Assembly (NCBI RefSeq): GCF_003550015.1
Contig: NZ_QXEV01000001.1
Location: 1-64,000, forward strand
DNA: 64,000 nucleotides
Direction: 5' to 3'
Origin: Anaeroplasma bactoclasticum
GTDB taxonomy: Bacteria > Bacillota_I > Bacilli_A > Acholeplasmatales > Anaeroplasmataceae
Shown: in pieces, positions 17,666 through 20,071 of the stretch
How positions within the stretch are numbered: the stretch's first letter is position 1
How the letters are laid out: the number at the start of each line of letters is the position of its first letter
The notes under the pieces: model-generated
The model's input: only the letters and a program-made list of their open reading frames with translations
What the model was told of the DNA's origin: nothing
Database searches by the model: none
Program-made: the position numbers and the translations under genes

Positions 17666-18244
17666 ATGGAGATTAGAGAATGGAATTCAATTACTGCCTA
17701 TGCAGTATATAAAATGAAGAAATGCTTCTTTGACTCCATTTTTTCTATTTTGGGGCTTTTATTCATTTATTTTGTTATATTGGAATCCTTCTATCATTTA
17801 GAATGGGTAAAGAATGGTGAATTAACATTTGATATTCCTAATTTTTTAAATAATTTCTTTTTTACAGTAATTGTTATTTTTATTACTTTGGGTTTTTTTG
17901 TATTCGCATTACTTATATATTTAATAATTGTAATGATTAAAGAATATAAGAAAATAAGATATTATAAAAAGCCTAGGTTTTCTATTATAGAAATAAAAGA
18001 AATAGAATATGATTATAAGCTATGGCAAACAGCCTCTAAGAATACTTTTCATTCTCAGGCAATTAAAATGCGGATAGATAGTGAAGAAAGATTATTTAAA
18101 ACACCAATTATATTTACAAATAGTAAAAGAATTGGAGTATTTAAGATACCACCGATTTTGCAAAGCCATTCTTATGTTAGAGGTAGATGTGAAATTGGCT
18201 ATGATCCTAAGAAAAATGAGGCAGTTATATTGTCTATACTATAA
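17666..18244 (+). CDS. Two-helix membrane protein of unknown function
   Basis: A 192-residue protein, family not recognised. It has two strong hydrophobic segments (about residues 25-44 and 67-92), then a basic patch and a 90-residue soluble tail predicted to be beta-rich, ending in GRCEIGYDPKKNEAVILSIL. The general layout (two helices plus a small beta domain with a ligand-like GYDPKK turn) recalls DUF3592-type proteins, but the match is weak. It starts 11 bases after the aminotransferase gene with an AAGG ribosome binding site, so it is probably co-transcribed. No terminator follows directly. Confidence 0.7.
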   Translation: MEIREWNSITAYAVYKMKKCFFDSIFSILGLLFIYFVILESFYHLEWVKNGELTFDIPNFLNNFFFTVIVIFITLGFFVFALLIYLIIVMIKEYKKIRYYKKPRFSIIEIKEIEYDYKLWQTASKNTFHSQAIKMRIDSEERLFKTPIIFTNSKRIGVFKIPPILQSHSYVRGRCEIGYDPKKNEAVILSIL

Positions 18245-18282: not shown

Positions 18283-18311
18283 TTGACAACAATAAAATAG
18301 TGTTATTAAAT
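18283..18311 (+). promoter_or_regulatory. Promoter of the flotillin leader RNA
   Basis: TTGACA (18283-18288), 17 bases, then TTAAAT (18306-18311). It places the transcription start just ahead of the structured leader at about 18336. Confidence 0.65.
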
Positions 18312-18335
18312 AATAGTGTAAGTGAATAATCCTTT

Positions 18336-18460
18336 TATCAATAAGGGAGTAAAAAGCCAGGCAACTGGGATGTTGACTCGTCAGAACGATAACGTAAGTT
18401 ATCCGGGCACATTGAAATTTTGAGACTTTTGATACTAATGTGTCGGGAGTCTTTTTTTTG
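18336..18460 (+). ncRNA. Structured leader RNA, candidate yybP-ykoY-type (Mn2+) riboswitch
   Basis: A conserved-looking cis-regulatory leader before the flotillin gene. The closing helix pairs ATCAA-T-AAG (18338-18346) with CTTTTGAT (18426-18433). Directly inside are GGGAGTAA (18345-18352) on the 5' side and TGAGAC (18421-18426) on the 3' side, like the GGGGAGUAG and CGAGACC elements of yybP-ykoY RNAs. A GTCA element (18380-18383) and a perfect hairpin GATAAC-GTAA-GTTATC (18388-18403) lie between. A competing hairpin, CCGGGCACATT (18403-18413) with AATGTGTCGGG (18437-18447), is followed by eight T (18452-18459) and looks like the terminator. The two folds exclude each other. The ligand class is tentative; a flotillin target would be unusual. 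Confidence 0.5.
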
Positions 18461-18529
18461 AGAGTGCTGATGGGTTAGGGAGAGGGATTGTTACTTCAAA
18501 AAATTGAGCATTTCAAGGAGGGTATATAA

Positions 18530-20071
18530 ATGAATGCATTAATGTTTTTATTATCTGGCGGCGGACTTGCAGCATTAATTATTGGTATTGTTGTAGTTGT
18601 CGCATTGTTGATTGTATTCTTCGCTTGTGGTTATGTTAAGGCTGCACCCGATACTGCAATCATCATTTCTGGTGCAGGAAAGAGAAAAATCTTAATTGGT
18701 AAGGCAGGATATCGTCTACCATTCTTCCAAAGATTAGATAAGCTTTCCTTAAGGGTTTTCCAAGTTGACATTAAGACAGATGAGGCTATTCCTACATCTA
18801 ACTTTATCAACATTCGTGTTGATGGTGTTGCTAACTTAAAGATTTCATCTGACCCAGAGCTATTAGCTAGAGCTGCAGAGGCTATCTTAAATATGAGAGA
18901 AGATGAGCTAATTAAGCAGGTTCAGCAGGTTTTACAGGGTAACATGCGTGAAATCATTGGTACAGTTGATATCAAGAAGCTAGTTCAAGATCGTCAGGGT
19001 GTTGCTCAGAGCGTTAAGGAAAATGTAGTTCCTGATATGGCTAAGATGGGTATTGAGGTTGTTAACTTTAATATTCAGTCCTTCTCTGATGACAACCATG
19101 TAATTGAGAACTTAGGTATTGATAATATTTCTCAGATTTCTAAGGATGCTGCAATTGCTAAGGCTAATGCAGAGCGTGATGTTACAATCGCTAAGTCTTT
19201 AGCTGAAGAAGCAGCTAACCGTTCTCGTGTTGATGCAAATCAGAAGATCATTCAGCAGAATACTGAATTAAGCTTAAAGCAGTCTGCATTAAAGCAGCAG
19301 ACAGATACTGCAAAGGCTACTGCAGATGCAGCATATGCAATTGAGGAGCAGAAGCGTCAGCAGGAAATCAACATCGCTAAGATCAATGCCGATATCGCAA
19401 AGAGAGAGCGCGAGGTTGAATTAGGACAGAAGGAAGTTGAACTTCAGGAAAGAAAGCTACAGGCTACAATCAACAAGCAGGCAGATGCTGAAAAGTATGC
19501 TAAGGAGCAGGCTGCACAGGCAGACCTATTCGCTCGTCAGAAGGCTGCAGAAGCTAAGAAGTACGAGTTAGAGCAGGAAGCTGAAATGCAGAAGATTAGA
19601 GCTGAAGCTGAAAGAGTAGCTAGAGAAAAGGCTGCAGAAGCATTAAAGTTTGAAGCAGAGGCTAAGAAGCAGGCTGCACTTGATGAGGCTGCAGGTATTG
19701 AGGCTAAGGGTAAGGCAGAGGCTGATGCTATCTTAGCTAAGGCAGAAGCTATGAAGCAGTATGGTGAAGCTGCAACATTACAGTTAATCTTAGATTCTAA
19801 GGTATTACCAGAAATGGTTAAGGCATACAGCGAGCCAATGGCTGCTGCAATGAGCCAGATTGATTCTATCACTATGTACGGTGAAGGAAATACTGCAAAG
19901 CTTAATGAGGAAATTACTCGTAATGGTACTCAGATCTTTGCTGGTCTTGAAAAGGCTACTGGTCTTGACATTAAGTCTTTATTAGCTGGTTATTTAGGAG
20001 GCAAGCTAATCAATAAGGCTGATGCTCCTAAGGCTATTAAAGAGCCAAAGGCTAAGAAAGAAACAGAATAA
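18530..20071 (+). CDS. floT: Flotillin-like SPFH-domain protein
   Basis: A 513-residue flotillin. An N-terminal membrane hairpin or helix (about residues 8-33) is followed by the SPFH/band-7 domain (DTAIIISGAGKRKILIGKAG onward), and from about residue 190 to 420 by a long Ala/Glu/Lys/Gln-rich coiled coil with repeated AEA and KAEA units. Flotillins scaffold lipid microdomains at the membrane in Bacillus (FloT/YuaG). The length matches FloT. GGAGGG lies just before the ATG. Nearly all Gln codons are CAG and Lys codons mostly AAG, unlike neighbouring genes that use CAA, which suggests high expression. It is preceded by the structured leader and ends at a strong terminator; no NfeD partner gene is adjacent. 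Confidence 0.9.
   Translation: MNALMFLLSGGGLAALIIGIVVVVALLIVFFACGYVKAAPDTAIIISGAGKRKILIGKAGYRLPFFQRLDKLSLRVFQVDIKTDEAIPTSNFINIRVDGVANLKISSDPELLARAAEAILNMREDELIKQVQQVLQGNMREIIGTVDIKKLVQDRQGVAQSVKENVVPDMAKMGIEVVNFNIQSFSDDNHVIENLGIDNISQISKDAAIAKANAERDVTIAKSLAEEAANRSRVDANQKIIQQNTELSLKQSALKQQTDTAKATADAAYAIEEQKRQQEINIAKINADIAKREREVELGQKEVELQERKLQATINKQADAEKYAKEQAAQADLFARQKAAEAKKYELEQEAEMQKIRAEAERVAREKAAEALKFEAEAKKQAALDEAAGIEAKGKAEADAILAKAEAMKQYGEAATLQLILDSKVLPEMVKAYSEPMAAAMSQIDSITMYGEGNTAKLNEEITRNGTQIFAGLEKATGLDIKSLLAGYLGGKLINKADAPKAIKEPKAKKETE

Follow-up and report, generated by a model that had tools for sequence, protein, structure and literature searches.

A compact, P4-less leader RNA of the yybP-ykoY (Mn2+) riboswitch type probably controls a FloT-like flotillin gene in Anaeroplasma bactoclasticum

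The leader RNA ahead of a flotillin gene in Anaeroplasma bactoclasticum is most probably a compact riboswitch of the yybP-ykoY (Mn2+) type that lacks P4 (a three-way junction) and, by means of a terminator, places a FloT-like flotillin gene under antitermination control; we give this reading a probability of roughly 0.86. The leader lies in a stretch of 64,000 nucleotides of contig NZ_QXEV01000001.1, called the window here. By sequence and folding, it spans positions 18336–18459 and is made of P1, a P2 hairpin, a P3 arm and an intrinsic terminator. The P1–P2–P3 arrangement, the L1 and L3 motifs, a terminator that shares the 3′ strand of P1, conservation, covariation and Mn2+/Ca2+ transporter genes as targets are all evident from the sequence comparisons. 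The kind of aptamer is known, and a flotillin or SPFH target appears to be new. The preliminary description of this DNA had expected as much, and no paper linking flotillin or SPFH genes to the yybP-ykoY class was found in the open literature searched (subscription papers, including the 2015 supplements, lie outside that search). The features of the region are the following:

18283–18311, + strand: probable promoter, with a putative −35 element TTGACA (18283–18288), a 17-nt spacer and a weak −10 element TTAAAT (18306–18311)
18336–18345, + strand: 5′ strand of the P1 switch helix (UAUCAAUAAG), with U18342 bulged; pairs with 18426–18434 over 9 bp
18345–18352, + strand: L1 motif (GGGAGUAA), containing GGGAGUA
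18357–18368, + strand: P2 hairpin (CCAG-GCAA-CUGG), which covaries in the wider set
18370–18377/18407–18412, + strand: strands of P3.1, which encloses L3 and P3.2 and covaries strongly among flotillin leaders
18379–18387, + strand: L3, the metal-site loop (CGUCAGAAC), with A18383 inside
18388–18393/18398–18403, + strand: P3.2 hairpin (GAUAAC-GUAA-GUUAUC), with double changes in all five modelled pairs
18413–18425, + strand: unpaired joint followed by a conserved AGA element; the site of P4 in other members
18426–18434, + strand: 3′ strand of P1, which doubles as part of the terminator 5′ arm
18422–18435/18440–18453, + strand: stem of the intrinsic terminator (14 bp, loop of 4), with its T-run at 18452–18459
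18518–18526, + strand: predicted ribosome-binding region (AAGGAGGGT)
18530–20071, + strand: flotillin gene, the regulated gene, encoding a FloT-like SPFH/Band 7 protein of 513 aa

The L1 loop of the yybP-ykoY class holds an A-minor adenosine and metal contacts. The window leader shares with the class as represented by RF00080 (L. lactis yoaB and E. coli mntP) the GGGAGUA of L1, the invariant adenosine of L3, and P1, P2 and P3 in the class arrangement, with covariation. GGGAGUA is invariant in all 56 leaders compared, and in alignment A5 the L3 adenosine is present in 56 of 56 and the C before it in 55 of 56. A18383 presumably occupies the position of A41, the Mn-binding adenosine of L. lactis yoaB. 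The nucleotide numbering in PMC9190785 is consistent with this match of positions, and N7 of A41 binds Mn2+ (PMC9190785, PMC6754395). The motif GGGAGTAA (18345–18352) and the TGAGAC (18421–18426) flank the closing helix, just as the preliminary description had it.

P4 is one of the four helices usually described for yybP-ykoY. The window leader has neither P4 nor a four-way junction: its joint from P3.1 to the AGA element cannot accommodate a hairpin, and one does stand at this site in the RF00080 matches L072–L074, from the same bacterial family, and L081. We treat P4 as non-essential because the S. pneumoniae mgtA riboswitch, an accepted member that is named a yybP-ykoY family riboswitch (PMC11434433), is described as a three-way junction (PMC9495176); the P4-less form is therefore known, though poorly covered by Rfam. 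Compared by its published description, the mgtA riboswitch resembles the window leader in its three-way junction and as a transcriptional ON switch, as predicted for the window leader, and its P-type ATPase target recurs among the relatives of the window leader. It differs in that the target in the window is a flotillin.

The same RNA in relatives is associated with Mn2+/Ca2+ transporter genes, which are also targets of RF00080 members. A covariance model built from 14 flotillin leaders only (R1) matched about 100 places in 51 of the 55 genomes of the window's family. The downstream gene was taken as the longest ORF starting within 700 nt, and a few single cases may be mis-assigned by this rule. 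In the 88 matches read, it was a P-type ATPase 27 times, a Na+/Ca2+ antiporter 20 times, a flotillin 13 times, MntP six times and another SPFH protein twice, with single cases of PHO4, TrkH, an NptA-like and a TauE-like protein. The window's own genome contains four copies of the leader. Besides that of the flotillin, one precedes a Na+/Ca2+ antiporter, and the other two (L062/L120, G000:C2:65240-65337, and L070/L121, G000:C3:14228-14323) precede membrane proteins with no assigned function, one of which has a C-terminal zinc ribbon; the L121 target resembles the product behind a leader copy in another genome, G010 (L130), with 28% identity over 78 aa. A second model (R2), made from a wider selection of 56 sequences, was run on 200 genomes sampled from a Blautia genome's family and matched 126 of them; its best matches lay mostly before MntP. 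Its targets there also include HflK, MgtE and a subunit of a Na+-pumping decarboxylase.

At three loci (L258, L271 and L277), the gene behind the leader encodes the beta subunit of a Na+-translocating decarboxylase, and such targets could be a sign of a broader ion-stress regulon or of a ligand ion that is not Mn2+. DUF1646 is a sodium riboswitch, and we considered it because of the Na+-linked targets, but none of the Rfam scans returned such a family. The same aptamer fold and switch could also answer to Ca2+, to mixed Mn2+/Ca2+ or to some other ion as the physiological ligand, the targets then reporting general ion stress. The Na+/Ca2+ antiporters (20 of the 88 downstream genes) speak for this, as do the Na+-translocating decarboxylase beta subunit, MgtE, PHO4 and TrkH among the targets and the S. 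pneumoniae mgtA aptamer, which is reported to bind Ca2+ more tightly than Mn2+ in vitro, with Mn2+ the better activator (PMC9495176). We nevertheless think a different ligand rather unlikely, as MntP recurs often among the targets of the same model and the adenosine that is selective for Mn is invariant (56/56).

RF00080 gave no match at E ≤ 10 in the window leader and none in the window's genome, and Rfam run on the window at gathering and permissive thresholds returned no riboswitch; the Infernal check against RF00080 that had been proposed for this leader was thus negative on the window itself. Nor does the leader reach the RF00080 gathering score of 45 bits, which is a library convention and no sound ground for exclusion, because the validated E. 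coli mntP riboswitch scores 41.6. The best Rfam match of the orthologous leaders, across the full model length, is RF02617 (SSRC10, Streptococcus sRNA 10). It falls exactly on the leader at eight flotillin loci of relatives and at a further copy (L003), and it has no match in the window slice at E ≤ 10. Scores were 22–42.5 bits at the relatives' leaders and up to 51.4 bits elsewhere, all below the gathering cut-off of 56. In genomes of the class, RF02617 matches precede MntP, Ca2+-type P-type ATPases and Na+/Ca2+ antiporters, and at three related loci (L046, L053 and L056) RF00080 and RF02617 match the same positions. Weak RF02617 matches at L059, L060, L065, L066, L068 and L069 lack the core motifs and were set aside as chance.

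SSRC10 itself appears to be a compact, P4-less Mn2+ riboswitch that has been filed as an sRNA (loci L046, L053, L056 and L311). Its neighbours in S. pyogenes are a hypothetical gene on one side and a putative calcium transporter gene on the other (PMC3675131), an arrangement that, together with the full-length match, likens it to the window leader; the sRNA filing, the scores below cut-off and an Rfam structure without P1 set it apart. The filing, together with the Northern blot detection and end mapping of SSRC10 (PMC3675131), would suit a terminated leader that works in trans as a small RNA, with read-through into the flotillin gene being incidental. We consider this very unlikely: the genes that follow on the leader's own strand consistently encode ion transporters or SPFH proteins, and the covariation of P1 and its overlap with the terminator indicate control in cis.

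R1 recovers the RF00080 loci tested (L072–L074, L077, L081 and others; L078 was left out, its leader not being visible in its stretch) as well as the RF02617 loci that bear the core motif. R2 recovers the E. coli mntP riboswitch with 19.7 bits (E = 0.0042), where RF00080 scores below its own cut-off; R2 gave no match at the E. coli alx leader. Together with the metal-transporter targets and the invariant motifs, these recoveries support the resemblance to yybP-ykoY first noticed in the preliminary description. Its fallback, a new RNA, finds no support in them. That a new class should resemble yybP-ykoY in short motifs by chance would fit the missing RF00080 match in the window and its genome, and is highly improbable given the recovered RF00080 loci and mntP, the coinciding RF00080 and RF02617 positions and the common targets. 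Judging by R2 (126 of 200 genomes in the family of the Blautia genome), this well-known riboswitch has a common compact form that Rfam does not pick up.

The leader is kept before orthologous flotillins in the same genus, in a second genus of the family and in one genus of another family of the same order; flotillins of the other genera in that comparison are without it. In A1, the raw MAFFT alignment of the 14 flotillin leaders, we counted 47 doubly changed cells against 21.2 ± 3.1 after shuffling (0/500), and the covariation score was 0.368 against 0.158 at the best slide, with strong signal in P3.1 and P3.2. Alignment A3 gave 264 doubly changed cells against 91.0 and a score of 0.642 against 0.103 or 0.096 when slid by one, and A5 covaried likewise; both alignments were fitted to the structure, so their counts are biased towards it. 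When RNAalifold was run on A1 with no structure supplied, it returned just P3 and neighbouring pairs, and P1 and P2 were therefore tested as predefined helices. P1 is nearly constant among flotillin leaders, where pairing in the terminator puts a further constraint on its 3′ strand. In the wider family, four of its five pairs show double changes, and P1 cells are paired in 97.6% of cases in A3 and in 97–98% across A3 and A5. Of the two helices on whose covariation the preliminary description had let its reading depend, the closing helix (P1) covaries across the wider family. The fold (z-score −3.14 for the window leader), the conservation and the covariation all exceed chance.

A terminator search on the window leader found one terminator, against a mean of 0.1 in shuffled sequences. 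P1 and the terminator both need 18426–18434, which bears out the earlier claim that the closing helix and the terminator exclude each other. Both elements stand, with their coordinates revised: the closing helix proposed at 18338–18346/18426–18433 runs over 18336–18345/18426–18434, and the terminator, proposed at 18403–18413/18437–18447, occupies 18422–18453, with its T-run at 18452–18459. The latter proposed hairpin is complementary in 10 of 11 pairs, yet a fold forced to contain it is 7.7 kcal/mol less stable (−30.8 against −38.5 kcal/mol), and inspecting leaders of relatives by eye revealed no comparable pairing. The minimum-energy fold without ligand includes the terminator (−38.5 kcal/mol); forcing P1 gives −21.4 kcal/mol. 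Before the 3′ arm of the terminator exists, P1 costs just 0.8 kcal/mol (−20.6 against −21.4), which suits a kinetic switch in which the ligand would hold P1 during the passage of the polymerase. In all 21 flotillin leaders examined, four or five of the five nucleotides of the P1 3′ strand lie inside the terminator stem, so that P1 shares a strand with the expression platform and the switch is predicted to turn on with ligand. The terminator contributes much of the fold energy, as it would in an ordinary terminator of the upstream transcription unit followed by a spacer that senses no ligand, but the covariation of P3.1 and P3.2 in the raw MAFFT alignment, upstream of the terminator, and the invariant loop motifs make that reading the least credible of all.

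For the Mn2+-type riboswitch, the ligand and the direction of the switch can be proposed by analogy with the studied class. At high divalent metal, most likely Mn2+, L1 and L3 would dock around the ion and stabilise P1; with P1 held, the terminator would be blocked and flotillin made. At low metal, P1 would open, the terminator would form and transcription would end near 18459. The flotillin would then belong to a metal-overload response, alongside the Na+/Ca2+ antiporter whose gene follows another copy of the leader in the window's genome. The yybP-ykoY class has a published ON-switch mechanism (PMC11087558, PMC9190785): in L. lactis, P1.1 is stabilised when Mn2+ binds, which keeps the terminator from forming (PMC11087558), and there, as in the window leader, the P1 switch helix competes with the terminator. 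Transcription likely begins upstream of the structure, and from the probable promoter a start site is expected near 18318. In several leaders of orthologous flotillins, TTGACA-17/18-TATAAT or something close to it (TAAAAT) stands just upstream; promoter scoring of the window called no promoter for the TTGACA and weak −10 pair.

The window flotillin matches Pfam Band_7 (E = 5.5e-22) and scores 266 bits (E = 6.6e-79) against the NCBIfam FloT model NF058507, whose equivalog cut-off is 700 bits. By sequence, its product is thus FloT-like and no certified FloT equivalog. The closest flotillin among named genomes is that of an uncultured Anaeroplasma sp. (L199), with 93% identity. Among 76 flotillin loci of named genomes, the leader lies upstream on the same strand at 13 of the Acholeplasmatales/Anaeroplasma type and seven in Clostridia (Blautia, other Lachnospiraceae, a bin labelled Oscillospiraceae and others). 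Assembly gaps were checked at part of the leaderless loci. On a quick flotillin tree, the leader label needs four changes against 18.4 when shuffled, or three when rows short on upstream sequence are omitted, and the leader-bearing flotillins form three separated clades, one of them in Clostridia. The pairing would thus have arisen more than once or been lost repeatedly. Other SPFH genes, HflK and prohibitin-like, stand behind the leader in Clostridia (L275 and L279) and in relatives from the family (L174 and L176); for HflK, L279 scores above the TIGR01933 cut-off and L275 is similar by sequence.

To our knowledge, the role of bacterial flotillins is still unsettled. The occurrence of this type of switch ahead of flotillin genes both in a rumen relative of Anaeroplasma and in gut Clostridia suggests that flotillins, which are poorly understood membrane scaffolds, respond to metal stress. 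The broader claim, that three-way-junction Mn2+-type riboswitches repeatedly control SPFH scaffolds (FloT-like flotillin, HflK, prohibitin-like) in at least two bacterial classes and that flotillins belong to the metal-overload response, seems to us evenly balanced. If it is true, flotillins perhaps organise membrane sites for the metalation or quality control of exported proteins. It is plausible that flotillin has a tie to Mn2+ biology, since in B. subtilis the proteins FloT, FloA and FtsH were recovered with the TerC-family Mn2+ proteins MeeF and MeeY (PMC10550928). A riboswitch of a metal class before flotillins of three clades and before other SPFH genes offers a direct, testable handle on their physiology.

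Some observations concern the surroundings of these leaders. The gene upstream of the window leader (17666–18244) encodes a membrane protein of 192 aa with no confident family, and a similar sequence lies ahead of the leader in a second genome, G019 (L016). In G008, a genome of the same genus, a flotillin-type leader (L004, G008:C3) runs as far as the AAG element and then meets a repeat-like GGCTGTGAAA; a different contig (L018, G008:C78) carries the flotillin gene, with related sequence upstream, and the broken leader would reflect an insertion or an assembly break. Beside the flotillin locus of one relative (L023, 1162–1263, − strand), an S10-Clostridia ribosomal protein leader RNA (RF03136) scores above cut-off.
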